Origin: Atopobium sp.
GTDB taxonomy: Bacteria; Actinomycetota; Coriobacteriia; Coriobacteriales; Atopobiaceae
Assembly (NCBI GenBank): GCA_015259045.1
Contig: JABZHD010000008.1
Coordinates: 1-19,295, forward strand
DNA: 19,295 nucleotides
Direction of reading: 5' to 3'
In this document: piece by piece, positions 2,678-17,812 of the stretch
Layout: each line of letters opens with the position of its first letter
Position numbering within the stretch: the first letter of the stretch is position 1
Program-made: the position numbers and the translations under genes
Notes under the pieces: model-generated
Seen by the model: the letters and a program-made list of their open reading frames with translations, nothing else
Told to the model about the DNA's origin: nothing
Database searches by the model: none

Positions 2678-3550
2678 TTACACTTTCTCGGTAACTGGTC
2701 GACCAAGCAGGCCAGTTGGTTTGACAACAAGAACAAGAATCAAGAGTAAGAAGACTACCGCGTCCTGCCAGACGGACAGACCAAAGGCAGCAACAAAGAC
2801 CTCGGAGAAGCCAACAATAAGGCCGCCAATAACAGCGCCTGGAATGGACCCAATGCCGCCAAGAACTGCTGCAACAAATGCCTTGGTGCCCAGCATGACG
2901 CCCATGGTAGGAGAAACCTGCTGGTATGCCATGGAGTACAGAATAGCTGCAATGCCTGCCAGAGCGGAACCAACTGCAAAGGTAAAGCTAATGGTGCTAT
3001 TGACGTTAACGCCCATCAGACGAGCGGCGCCCATATCCTCAGAAACGGCACGCATTGCCTTACCAAGACGAGTCTTCTGAACCAAAAGGGTCAGAACAAC
3101 GGTTGCCACAATAGTAACGGCAACAGTCAAAAGCGCAGTGCCAGAGAGCGTCGAACCAAGTACCTGAACAGTTCCCAGGTCAATGATGCTTGGAACAACC
3201 TTAGCGTCAGCACCAAGAAGTAGCTGAACTCCATTTTCAAGCAGGTAAGAAACACCAATTGCGGTAATCAGAATAGAAAGCCTTGGAGCTTCTCTGAGTG
3301 GTGCATAGGCAACCTTGTCGATAAGAACGCCCAGCAAAACGCAGCCAAAAATGGCGAGAAGAACGGCGATTGCAGGATTGAGTCCTAACTGAACAAGCGC
3401 AATCCAAGCAACGTAGGAACCAAACATGATGATGTCACCATGTGCAAAGTTAAGAAGCAAGATGATGCCGTACACCATTGTGTAACCAAGCGCCACCAGT
3501 GCGTAAATACTGCCCAATTGAAGTCCATTGAGCACCTGAGTCAAAAACAT
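2678..3550 (-). CDS. livH: LivH-type branched-chain amino acid ABC transporter permease
   Basis: Membrane permease partner of LivM. It has 290 residues, the usual size for LivH. Recognisable family sequences are the N-terminal LNGLQLGSIYALVALGYTMVYG, with NFAHGDIIMFGSY just after it, plus the loop KTRLGKAMRAVSED and the C-terminal VLVVKPTGLLGRP typical of LivH. About eight or nine hydrophobic segments are visible. The ATG at 3548-3550 has only a weak purine-rich ribosome-binding site (AAAAGAGAA) and lies 15 bases after the livJ TAG, so re-initiation or coupling from livJ is likely. Its stop codon overlaps the ribosome-binding site of livM. Confidence 0.96.
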   Translation of the reverse strand: MFLTQVLNGLQLGSIYALVALGYTMVYGIILLLNFAHGDIIMFGSYVAWIALVQLGLNPAIAVLLAIFGCVLLGVLIDKVAYAPLREAPRLSILITAIGVSYLLENGVQLLLGADAKVVPSIIDLGTVQVLGSTLSGTALLTVAVTIVATVVLTLLVQKTRLGKAMRAVSEDMGAARLMGVNVNSTISFTFAVGSALAGIAAILYSMAYQQVSPTMGVMLGTKAFVAAVLGGIGSIPGAVIGGLIVGFSEVFVAAFGLSVWQDAVVFLLLILVLVVKPTGLLGRPVTEKV

Positions 3551-15643: not shown

Positions 15644-16864
15644 TTGAACCTCTGGGTAACCATGTTTTGTGTTTTCCTCTCAGCTGGTCTTGGTTCAGCT
15701 CTGATTACCCCTGCCGTTCGTCAACTAGCTTGGAAACTTGGAGTTGTCGATAAACCCTCTGCACGTCGAGTCAATAAAAAACCTATTCCTCGCATGGGTG
15801 GCGTTGCAATTTTCTTTGGGTTAGCCGTTGCTATGCTGGTACGTTATGGCGTTGAAGCAATTATTGGACACGCCGAAATTACGCTTTCTTCTCGCTATTA
15901 CCTGAACGTTAATTTTTGGGTTGTTGGCGCAGCCTTTGTGGTCATCTTCTTGACCGGCCTGTTAGATGATATTTTTTCTCTCAAGCCAATCCAGAAACTC
16001 GCTGGTCAAATTATTGCTGCATGCATCGCTGCTGCGGGCGGCCTGATTATCGGTAACGTTGTTGATCCGTTTTCCGCGTACGGCTTTGTGGATCTTGGAT
16101 GGCTCGCCTACCCAGCAACCGTCATTTACCTGGTTGCTTACGCCAACATCATCAACCTTATCGACGGCCTTGATGGACTTTCTTCAGGTATTACGTGCAT
16201 TGCCTCTACCACTATGTTTGTGCTTTCCATTTGGGCGGGTCGCTTTGACGCAGCGCTTTTAAGTGCAGCCATCGCTGGCACCACGCTGGGATTCTTAGTT
16301 CACAACTCCTATCCTGCAACAATCTTCATGGGCGACTCCGGTTCTCTAACCTTGGGATTTGCCCTAGGAACAATTTCGCTTTTGTCTGTCACTCGTTGGG
16401 CAGGACTCACAACCATCATTGTTCCTCTCGTCGTTGCAGGTATTCCGATCATCGATACCTTCTCCGCGATTGTTCGCCGTACCCGCGCGCACGTCAGTTT
16501 TGCCACAGCTGATCGTGGACACATCCATCACCGCTTAATGGCTCACGGTTATAACCAGCGCCAAGCAGTTCTTTTGATGTACGGTTGGACTGCCCTTCTG
16601 TGCGTTGGTTCGCTCATTATGACGCAGGTCAATACGCTGCCTCGTATTGCAATTTTTGTCATGCTGCTTACCATGTCTGCATTCTTTGCAAAGTACCTGC
16701 ACCTCTTTGAGCCTGTTCTGCTTCACCATACTGATCCAAAGACTGGTGAGGACGAGCTCATTACGCCTAAAGATCCAGGCTTCGATGAAGAGATTAAGCA
16801 GCTCCATGAAGAAGAGCATGAACACATCGAAGAGCTCATTCACAGAGATTATAAGAGCGAATAA
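15644..16864 (+). CDS. Undecaprenyl-phosphate sugar-1-phosphate transferase (MraY/WecA/TagO family)
   Basis: Polytopic membrane enzyme that moves a sugar-1-phosphate (usually N-acetylglucosamine-1-phosphate) from its UDP form to undecaprenyl phosphate, the first step of wall-linked polysaccharide or teichoic-acid-like polymer synthesis. It has 406 residues with about ten or eleven hydrophobic segments. Hallmarks are KPIPRMGGVAI, the aspartate pair in GLLDDIFSLKPIQKL, NLIDGLDGLSSG, IFMGDSGSLTLGF and the loop ADRGHIHHRLMAHG. The HIHHRL loop fits WecA/TagO better than MraY. The C-terminus is a polar Glu/His-rich tail of about 60 residues. The start is TTG at 15644, with AAGGG 8 bases upstream; the next in-frame ATG (15662) has no ribosome-binding site. 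It is the only plus-strand gene, and no terminator is seen after it. Confidence 0.93.
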   Translation: MNLWVTMFCVFLSAGLGSALITPAVRQLAWKLGVVDKPSARRVNKKPIPRMGGVAIFFGLAVAMLVRYGVEAIIGHAEITLSSRYYLNVNFWVVGAAFVVIFLTGLLDDIFSLKPIQKLAGQIIAACIAAAGGLIIGNVVDPFSAYGFVDLGWLAYPATVIYLVAYANIINLIDGLDGLSSGITCIASTTMFVLSIWAGRFDAALLSAAIAGTTLGFLVHNSYPATIFMGDSGSLTLGFALGTISLLSVTRWAGLTTIIVPLVVAGIPIIDTFSAIVRRTRAHVSFATADRGHIHHRLMAHGYNQRQAVLLMYGWTALLCVGSLIMTQVNTLPRIAIFVMLLTMSAFFAKYLHLFEPVLLHHTDPKTGEDELITPKDPGFDEEIKQLHEEEHEHIEELIHRDYKSE

Positions 16865-16927
16865 CCTGGGGAAACGACTGAGCTCTTCCCGCACCCACAT
16901 CGATCGCCATATAAGCTGTGACTACAC

Positions 16928-16939
16928 GGGTTTCTCGCC
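16928..16939. repeat. Copy of the GGGTTTCTCGCC motif after wecA
   Basis: Exact 12-base match to copies at 15000-15011 and 17272-17283. The rest of 16865-16962 shows no gene and no clear terminator. A GCTCTTCC at 16882 echoes the 21-bp repeats near 15268. Confidence 0.7.
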
Positions 16940-16962
16940 AGGTGCGCCATAACAGCATACGC

Positions 16963-17236
16963 GCCTAAAAAGTGCAAAGAATCTGTATTTGAGGTACAGA
17001 ATCTTTAACAAAAACAGGCAAATCCACAGATTCTTTTACATTTTTAGGCAAAATTTACAGATTCTTTGATGAAATCAGGCGCATGAAAGATAGGCGCTTC
17101 GGCCCTGAATTTTTGAGCCTGAAAGCTGCATCATGTCTGAGTGAATTCACTCAGACATGGCGAGAAAAACCGGCAAATAGCTCAGATATGGTGCACTTTT
17201 CCGGCAAATCGTTCAGACATGGCGAGAAAATCAGGC
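16963..17236. repeat. Two-block array of eight degenerate 23-bp units in the convergent wecA/rplT gap
   Basis: Each unit is exactly 23 bp, begins CAGA and ends GGC, with a variable centre often like GCACTTTT. Block 1: inverted 16963-16985, then direct 16997-17019, 17027-17049 and 17058-17080. Block 2: inverted 17117-17139, then direct 17152-17174, 17183-17205 and 17214-17236. Direct units repeat every 30 or 31 bp, about three helical turns. Units in block 1 share CAGATTCTTT; those in block 2 share CAGACATGG. Direct units are mostly followed by AAA or AAAT. The position between converging genes and the mixed orientation recall REP/BIME elements; iteron-like protein binding is an alternative. 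No reading frame worth reporting lies here. Confidence 0.8.
17132..17159. repeat. Perfect 28-bp palindrome at the junction of repeat units
   Basis: Each half reads CATGTCTGAGTGAA inward, with GAATTC at the centre, so the site is fully symmetric with no spacer. It joins the inverted and first direct unit of block 2. As RNA it would form a hairpin on either strand; as DNA it is a strong candidate for a dimeric protein site or a cruciform. Confidence 0.9.
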
Positions 17237-17283
17237 ACGCTGGGACTTCGACCGGTCGTACCCCCCCCACCGGGTTTCTCGCC

Positions 17284-17317
17284 AAAAGAAAACCCCGCAC
17301 ATCCGGGATGTACGGGG
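17284..17317 (-). terminator. Intrinsic terminator of infC-rpmI-rplT
   Basis: On the minus strand two 11-base arms (CCCCGTACATC and GATGTGCGGGG) around a 3-base loop are followed by TTTTCTTTT. One pair is G-U in the minus RNA and C-A in the plus RNA, which sets the direction. The GGCGAGAAACCC motif follows the T tract directly and can pair with part of it. Confidence 0.92.
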
Positions 17318-17336
17318 TGTAGCTATCTAGCTGCGA

Positions 17337-17420
17337 AGAAATCGCTTGGCTGAAGCCGCTTAGCTTGAGCCGCTTAGCTTGAGCCGCTTAGCTGGAGCCT
17401 CTTAGCTGAGGTTACTCAGC
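17337..17420. repeat. Six 14-bp tandem repeats spanning the end of rplT
   Basis: Consecutive 14-bp units (plus-strand consensus TTGAGCCGCTTAGC) start at 17337, 17351, 17365, 17379, 17393 and 17407. The two central units are identical, and the outer ones diverge gradually. The last unit includes the rplT stop codon (17412-17414) and its last two sense codons, so the tract may have grown out of the gene end. It lies between the stop and the terminator, that is, in the 3' untranslated region. Confidence 0.85.
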
Positions 17421-17771
17421 GAGAGCCTTCTTAGCGATCTCTGCAAGATCTGCGAAGCCCTGCTCGTCAGAGTAAGCAATCTCTGCGAGAACCTTGCGGT
17501 CAAGCTCAACACCAGCGAGCTTGAGGCCATGCATGAACTTGCTGTAAGAAAGGTCGTTGATGCGTGCTGCAGCGTTGATACGCTGAATCCACAGTGCGCG
17601 GAAATCACGCTTCTTGTTACGACGGTCACGGTAAGCATACTGACCAGAATGCTGTGCCTGCTCCTTCATACCACGGAAGGTACGAGAGGAAGTTCCGTAA
17701 TAACCCTTTGTGCGCTCGACGAGCGTCTGACGCTTCTTGCGGCCAGCAACTGCGCGCTTAACTCTTGCCAT
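17412..17771 (-). CDS. rplT: 50S ribosomal protein L20
   Basis: Binds 23S rRNA early in assembly of the large ribosomal subunit; in many bacteria it also represses its own operon. It has 119 residues, the usual length. Family sequences are [15 protein letters not shown], the long basic helix [37 protein letters not shown] and [20 protein letters not shown]. The ATG follows AAGGAG at 9 bases. It lies 41 bases after rpmI as the last gene of infC-rpmI-rplT, which ends at a strong terminator. The stop codon sits inside a 14-bp tandem repeat. Confidence 0.99.
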
Positions 17772-17812
17772 ATCTAATCACTCCTTGTTATTTGATCTGG
17801 TGGGTGGCGCGC

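Follow-up and report, generated by a model that had tools for sequence, protein, structure and literature searches.

Phased two-block repeat arrays dispersed between genes in Atopobium and related bacteria: candidate multi-site platforms for DNA-binding proteins

INTRODUCTION

The REP/BIME elements of Enterobacteria and Pseudomonas are short units that lie between genes in two orientations, occur in tens of dispersed copies, and combine in mosaics of modules. REP units are palindromic, bear a GTAG or CGTC tag (PMC3733652, title), and are tied to the RAYT transposase (PF01797). The BOX elements of Streptococcus pneumoniae, compared here by description, are modular, dispersed, intergenic repeats; we know of no phased, multi-site design among them. 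Transposon ends of the Tn7, Mu and Tn552 types present several transposase sites in fixed order. Chromosomal address sequences—uptake sequences, Chi, KOPS and matS—are short and frequent, and occur in all compartments of the genome; Chi and KOPS also have strand polarity.

The array described here lies in a stretch of 19,295 nucleotides of DNA, termed ‘the window’, from Atopobium sp., an oral bacterium of the Atopobium/Lancefieldella type. The array resembles REP/BIMEs in the traits listed above for the whole elements, and BOX elements in its modular dispersal between genes. It differs from REP/BIMEs in that its units are non-palindromic, untagged and helically phased, have no tie to a RAYT gene, and occupy loci that are kept between two species. 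Like the transposon ends, its blocks offer several sites of 22–23 bp in fixed order; unlike them, they have no transposase or cargo found with them, and their copies are constrained after insertion. The array is a real, constrained and dispersed multi-site element: its dispersal, its rigid geometry, its conservation above that of its flanks, and the recurrence of the same fixed and free positions were observed directly. The reading that we favor, with a probability of roughly 0.55, is that such arrays serve as dispersed intergenic platforms, each with multiple sites for one or more candidate DNA-binding proteins. Among the titles listed by our literature searches, which mostly do not extend to subscription papers, we saw neither these arrays described nor GGCGAGAARNNC, a word found in and near them.

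THE ARRAY AND ITS SURROUNDINGS

Eight exact 23-bp units of the form CAGA-N16-GGC occupy positions 16963–17236 in two blocks, A and B, each composed of one inverted unit and three direct units, as a preliminary description of this DNA had stated. From first unit to last, block A spans 118 bp on the forward strand (16963–17080; inverted U1, 16963–16985; U2, 16997–17019; U3, 17027–17049; U4, 17058–17080) and block B spans 120 bp on the same strand (17117–17236; inverted U1, 17117–17139; U2, 17152–17174; U3, 17183–17205; U4, 17214–17236). The linker that joins them, assigned to no strand, runs from 17081 to 17116, and places the start of U1 of block B 59 bp beyond that of U4 of block A. Direct units follow one another at steps of 30 and 31 bp in block A, and of 31 and 31 bp in block B, exactly the spacing first described; the inverted unit starts 34 bp (A) or 35 bp (B) before the next. 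Some three helical turns separate successive sites, which places them roughly on one face of the helix. CAGA-N16-GGC matches 14 times across the whole window (shuffles: mean 3.2, maximum 9), and eight times in the gap at 16863–17411, where 5000 dinucleotide shuffles gave a mean of 0.098 and a maximum of 2. Since the 7–8 bp spacers between direct units are conserved among copies, rather than variable and unique, a CRISPR array was rejected. In the genome paper of A. parvulum, the number of CRISPR repeats is given as 0 (PMC3035223).

Two features go beyond the preliminary description: the array is one member of a family with dispersed copies, and the interiors of its units alternate. In the consensus of copies, positions 15–17 read TTT in U1 and U3, and AAA in U2 and U4, of both blocks, so that the true period is a pair of units; U1 of block B in the window departs from this, and reads CTT. 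Blocks A and B have their ends, their layout and this alternation in common, which supports the suggestion that they arose by duplication of a whole block followed by divergence.

The array’s neighbors in the window are convergent: a glycosyl transferase family 4 gene (PF00953; 15644–16864, forward strand) on the left, and rplT (PF00453; 17412–17771, reverse strand) on the right. A consensus scan places a terminator-like hairpin with a T run on the rplT side, between that gene and the array (17292–17318, reverse strand), one of 2 terminator-like sites found in 16500–17800 where shuffles led us to expect 1.1. Between rplT and this hairpin, at 17343–17398, lie four 14-bp tandem repeats near CGCTTAGCTTGAGC. 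The arrays might themselves act at the level of RNA, as hairpins, attenuators or terminators in 3′ ends, and both window blocks fold better than shuffles do, on both strands (z −3.5 to −4.3). These good scores stem from the inverted units, however. Matching letters between U1 and U2 show no excess in block A (p 0.49) and a weak one in block B (p 0.027, one of six comparisons); no Rfam match falls at the array, the window’s matches being two tRNAs only; and the array lies beyond the terminator-like hairpin as seen from rplT. We regard a role of this kind as very improbable.

A DISPERSED FAMILY OF MODULES

The nearest genome examined, Atopobium sp. BS2 (G001), has blocks at about 20 loci. A phased two-unit pattern has 45 matches there and the same pattern reversed, as a control, has 0; the check on whether phased units are no commoner than chance thus came out in favor of the preliminary reading. 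Grouped by hand, the matches taken up as loci fall in 23 contig places, with a single locus split between two of them (C6 and C45). The closed genome G003 (1,543,805 bases) has blocks at 10 loci, every one of which is block-bearing in BS2 too. Dispersal like that of REP/BIMEs, suspected at the outset, is thus borne out, and the spacing, which might not have been kept in relatives, is kept in G003. Among 60 relatives (G001 included) the pair pattern matched G001 and G003 only, as did a three-unit pattern among 396 genomes of the class. A collection of named species, which is without A. parvulum and may be missing near records, matched in BS2 and in a Lachnospiraceae MAG (L064); the latter match was rejected as an array, and is an unrelated tandem repeat. 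Blocks were not detected in G002 and G005, two of the five species examined in the genus, and whatever function the arrays have is therefore dispensable. The rplT gap of these two genomes gave only short two-copy matches, and G004 matches the A and B blocks solely at the pfkB locus, in a remnant of 58 bp.

Copies are arranged as AB, BA, A alone, B alone, and ABA. In eight of the nine AB copies read (the window and eight from BS2), U1 of block B starts 58–59 bp after the start of U4 of block A; in the seven BA copies read the step between blocks varies from 60 to 86 bp.

The placement of the array between converging genes had been likened to that of REP/BIMEs. This likeness held in the BS2 sample, where four of five array gaps are convergent versus 26 of 133 array-free gaps (Fisher p 0.008), and was not significant in the G003 sample (3/9 versus 21/121; p 0.37). 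Pooled, 7/14 array gaps are convergent (p 0.01, the loci being partly shared). The lean of array gaps to convergent genes is a tendency and not a rule: by crude ORF calls, five non-convergent array gaps are tandem in G003, and one in each sample is divergent. Genes were called as longest ORFs, not taken from annotation, for these gap contexts and for the motif counts by compartment given below. In G003, a tendency of the arrays towards the origin was not significant (KS p 0.08).

Dispersal, intergenic location, the mixture of inverted and direct units, and some enrichment in convergent gaps would all suit classical REP/BIMEs moved by a RAYT transposase. Against this, the 23-bp units lack the palindrome, and their ends the GTAG or CGTC tag, and a REP-type transposase finds no support as a partner of the arrays: PF01797 (Y1 transposase) numbers 0 in array-bearing G003 and G004, and 1 in G005, in which arrays were not detected. 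This explanation is already contradicted, and we give it next to no credence. BS2 has one PF01797 protein, the matched part of which scores above the NCBIfam IS200/IS605 cut-off and below that of the REP model.

CONSERVATION AND CONSTRAINT

Compared at the same locus in the window and BS2, block A is identical at 113 of 118 positions and block B at 116 of 120, without gap columns. These identities, 96–97%, stand against 61–65% in the adjoining, gapped intergenic DNA (58/95 on the left, where 13 columns are gaps, and 31/48 on the right, where 18 are). Selection on sequence and geometry is supported, the latter as proposed in the preliminary description. The neighboring genes are 94% and 99% identical, and the linker between A and B is ungapped and identical at 33 of 36 positions. 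Between BS2 and G003, ungapped A blocks are 0.81–0.92 identical in eight pairs, versus 0.42–0.59 for 60-bp flanks and 0.42–0.50 for shuffled flanks. Eight of the 10 ortholog pairs were used for this comparison; the partner of L090 is split by an insertion element, and L091 has no ungapped match. Orthologous A copies (identity 0.854) are no closer to one another than non-orthologous ones (0.853; permutation p 0.46), and so it is a consensus that is conserved, and not the history of the locus.

Among 88 A units from 22 blocks, positions 1, 3, 6, 7, 10 and 22 are invariant, and positions 12–14 are widely variable. Conservation profiles correlate from unit to unit, with Spearman coefficients of 0.40–0.82 in block A and of 0.25–0.61 in block B (16 blocks), not every pair being significant. 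In a scan of 24 loci for ungapped A blocks, L089 showed a 1-bp deletion and L091 gave no match; the A profiles represent 22 of the 23 blocks found, L089 being left out, and exclude partial or interrupted BS2 copies (the second copy at L032, and L037, L040, L042, L052, L054 and L059). The B profiles represent 16 of 18 blocks, two (L033 and L038) being left out for a 1-bp insertion in a spacer. Taken together, the fixed and free positions are the pattern of a putative bipartite protein site, approximately C[AC]GATTCTTT-N4-WWWT[CT]AGGC, repeated every three helical turns or so.

Block A is present at all 10 G003 loci, and block B is decayed or missing at those with B in BS2, which indicates that the modules are lost separately. 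Ungapped identity to block B is below 50% at nine of the 10, and reached 0.50 at L084. Among the matches listed, B is missing at L088 (L050 in BS2) and L093 (L036 in BS2), and a decayed part is present at L084. Outer ends of A blocks at two G001 loci (L042 and L059) have short tandem duplications of the unit end, suggestive of slippage at the block edge.

MOBILE ORIGIN OR PROTEIN PLATFORM

A mobile origin is the main rival to the platform. The blocks could be MITE-like, non-autonomous elements, with U1 and U4 as terminal inverted repeats and U2 and U3 as extra transposase sites, which spread and were in some places lost. In most copies inspected the ends are inverted (GCCTGA...TCAGGC, in U1 and U4) and the edges fixed, as they are in terminal inverted repeats; the number of BS2 loci, the absence of block B from G003 at common loci such as L050/L088 and L036/L093, and a 348-amino acid gene flanked by two oppositely oriented B blocks also agree with mobility. 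A dead MITE, however, should not retain constrained unit interiors at loci common to two species whose flanks are scrambled. No target duplication was seen by eye in 70-bp block flanks, the sites being old and the flanks scrambled; the three-unit pattern matched 0 viral contigs, and the array had no phage or plasmid match. We consider a mobile origin possible, and rather doubtful. Single-unit matches to viral contigs (10 for A, at least 120 for B) were rejected as signs of viral origin; they are isolated, one per contig in the 10 (A) and 80 (B) contigs listed, and were taken as chance.

The gene between opposed B blocks (L061:4066–5721, on contig C22 of G001) may mark a parent or cargo element. 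Its 348-amino acid product has no match in Pfam, PADLOC or NCBIfam; one of the 40 relatives listed is named Lancefieldella parvula, and from our reading of the alignment it is possibly a nuclease. An IS30-type element (below the NCBIfam IS30 cut-off; HTH_38) lies inside A blocks at five G001 loci (L040, L042, L052, L054 and L059), in one copy separating U1 from U2, with TAC to either side of it, and in other copies adjoining the end of U3. Repeated insertion of this kind makes the arrays look like a preferred target.

According to the platform reading, each block would offer four 23-bp bipartite sites to a sequence-specific DNA-binding protein, which probably oligomerizes along them. Cooperative binding, anticipated in the preliminary description, is the likeliest reason for the phasing. 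Blocks A and B might be read by two related specificities, and the one that reads B may have disappeared from the lineage of G003, in which A was kept. That the identity of A copies is independent of orthology signifies that they are held to one consensus, and supports the platform, as do the separate loss of modules in G003 and the existence of a different phased family in G004. Homogenization by recombination between copies could contribute to this consensus, though it should level the variable positions too. The conserved A–B linker counts against the platform, since constraint on the sites alone does not explain it; the species in which blocks were not detected and the 1-bp changes in a few blocks count against it as well. 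As to function, our guess is that the platforms could be chromosome-architecture anchors, or roadblocks between transcription units. If arrays are protein platforms, the 118-bp block is a bait for a nucleoid or regulatory protein, with built-in controls: one species in which A is kept and B lost, a sister species with another type of array, and two in which none was found.

A GENOME-WIDE WORD

When 400-kb samples of G001, G003, G005 and G008 (L170–L189, L099–L118, L130–L149 and L150–L169), four genomes with GC contents of 46% to 69%, are ranked for over-represented 8-, 10- and 12-mers, words of GGCGAGAARNNC come first. The samples hold 185, 135, 118 and 244 copies in that order of genomes, against 2 to 5 of the reversed word and 14 to 26 with another last letter; densities in G003 are biased upward because its sample was picked around motif and array sites, that of G005 was evenly spaced (about 24 kb is N), and those of G008 and BS2 were runs of contig stretches. 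With a leading T, the word occurs 236 to 424 times per genome in five Lancefieldella genomes (control, 3 to 6). Some further genera of the family also carry this form often, and most of the 296 genomes surveyed across the class are close to background. It behaves alike in sense, antisense and intergenic DNA. Codon usage was rejected as its cause, as the antisense and intergenic copies have the same final C. We found no leading-strand bias in G003 (51 to 43) or G005 (30 to 33), replication strand being assigned from GC skew per 20-kb stretch. GGCGAGAARNNC thus resembles the known address sequences in being short, frequent and present in all compartments, and differs from Chi and KOPS in having no strand polarity; it is a candidate genome-wide address sequence in Actinobacteria. 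Among the titles listed for the word GGCGAGAA in a literature search that mostly did not extend to subscription papers, none concerned Atopobiaceae.

In the window, GGCGAGAARNNC occurs at 3352, 5016, 6033, 6132, 14631, 16928, 17158, 17220 and 17272. The motif TGGCGAGAARNNC is found within units U2 (17158–17170) and U4 (17220–17232) of block B on the forward strand, and on the reverse strand to the left of the array (16928–16940, as TGGCGAGAAACCC) and to its right (17272–17284). The flanking TGGCGAGAAACCC copies were rejected as a target duplication; they belong to the dispersed motif. Elsewhere, too, GGCGAGAARNNC occurs inside B units. Of the 14 BS2 arrays whose two flanks could both be read, 11 have the motif no more than 150 bp away, as do 6 of 10 G003 arrays. 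It is present in 19 of 72 array-free BS2 gaps of at least 200 bp (Fisher p 0.0004 versus the arrays, unequal lengths being compared), and, in G003, in 5/9 array gaps versus 11/63 array-free gaps (p 0.02, again with unequal lengths).

This proximity raises the possibility that DNA exchange carries the arrays along or is served by them: GGCGAGAARNNC would be an uptake-type signal, and arrays would spread or be kept by carrying or attracting it. Like DNA uptake sequences, GGCGAGAARNNC is the leading over-represented word, lies in coding and intergenic DNA, and has no polarity; an uptake signal would look like this. Enrichment of the motif near BS2 and G003 arrays, its presence in B units, the lack of replication-strand bias, and the presence of GCGAGAARNNC inside all six G004 arrays described below (as an inverted pair in four) are in keeping with exchange. 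The two genes searched for, PilM and ComEC, lean the other way: PilM (PF11104) is found in 0 of 5 Lancefieldella genomes, and, among the genomes tested, in 1 of the 12 that are rich in the motif (at least 59 copies of TGGCGAGAARNNC) and 3 of the 12 that are poor in it, and ComEC is in 24/24 regardless of motif. Block A, moreover, is without the motif, and it is A that G003 has kept. We judge exchange an unlikely explanation of the arrays.

PHASED ARRAYS IN OTHER GENOMES

G004 has exact CTGTGAGGTACTTTT words at six loci (L119, L121, L122, L123, L125 and L128), in dyad-like arrays of CTGTGAKGTACTTTT units. The unit is 15 bp and the steps are mostly 21 bp, with one of 33 bp; L119 has an additional cluster of variant units at 2891–2974. 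This 15-bp phased array is unrelated to the 23-bp A/B family, and the exact 15-mer CTGTGAGGTACTTTT is absent from the other 19 genomes searched. Three of the six loci (L119, L122 and L125) occupy the same gap as a BS2 or G003 array; L128 is one gene away from such a gap, so the shared loci number three. The chance of sharing at least three of six is 0.0003, 0.004 or 0.02 for 870, 350 or 200 eligible gaps, assuming 22 arrays; the totals of gaps and arrays are estimates. G008, which belongs to another genus, has its own dispersed repeats.

A broader and tentative reading joins these observations. Atopobiaceae chromosomes might combine the address word GGCGAGAARNNC, at ~300 to 600 copies per million bases in the sampled genomes, with phased, protein-binding arrays of each species’ own around subsets of the word: 23-bp units in steps of 31 bp, 15-bp units in steps of 21 bp (G004), and other motif-bearing repeats in the GC-rich genus. 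Together these would form a hitherto undescribed system of chromosome organization or DNA exchange that partly preserves the positions of arrays and swaps their sequence and presumed protein. From sequence comparison, we think this conceivable, and somewhat doubtful.

The repeats of G008, the representative of the GC-rich genus, are of two kinds (stretches L151, L155, L161 and L167, and L160, L162, L165 and L166). This genome carries the palindrome GCACAATTCCGGAATTGTGC and variants of it, paired ~100 bp apart, and also inverted repeats of GCGATTGGGTGGCATCCTTGATG. By eye, GCGAGAARNNC lies in or beside seven of the eight repeat stretches inspected.
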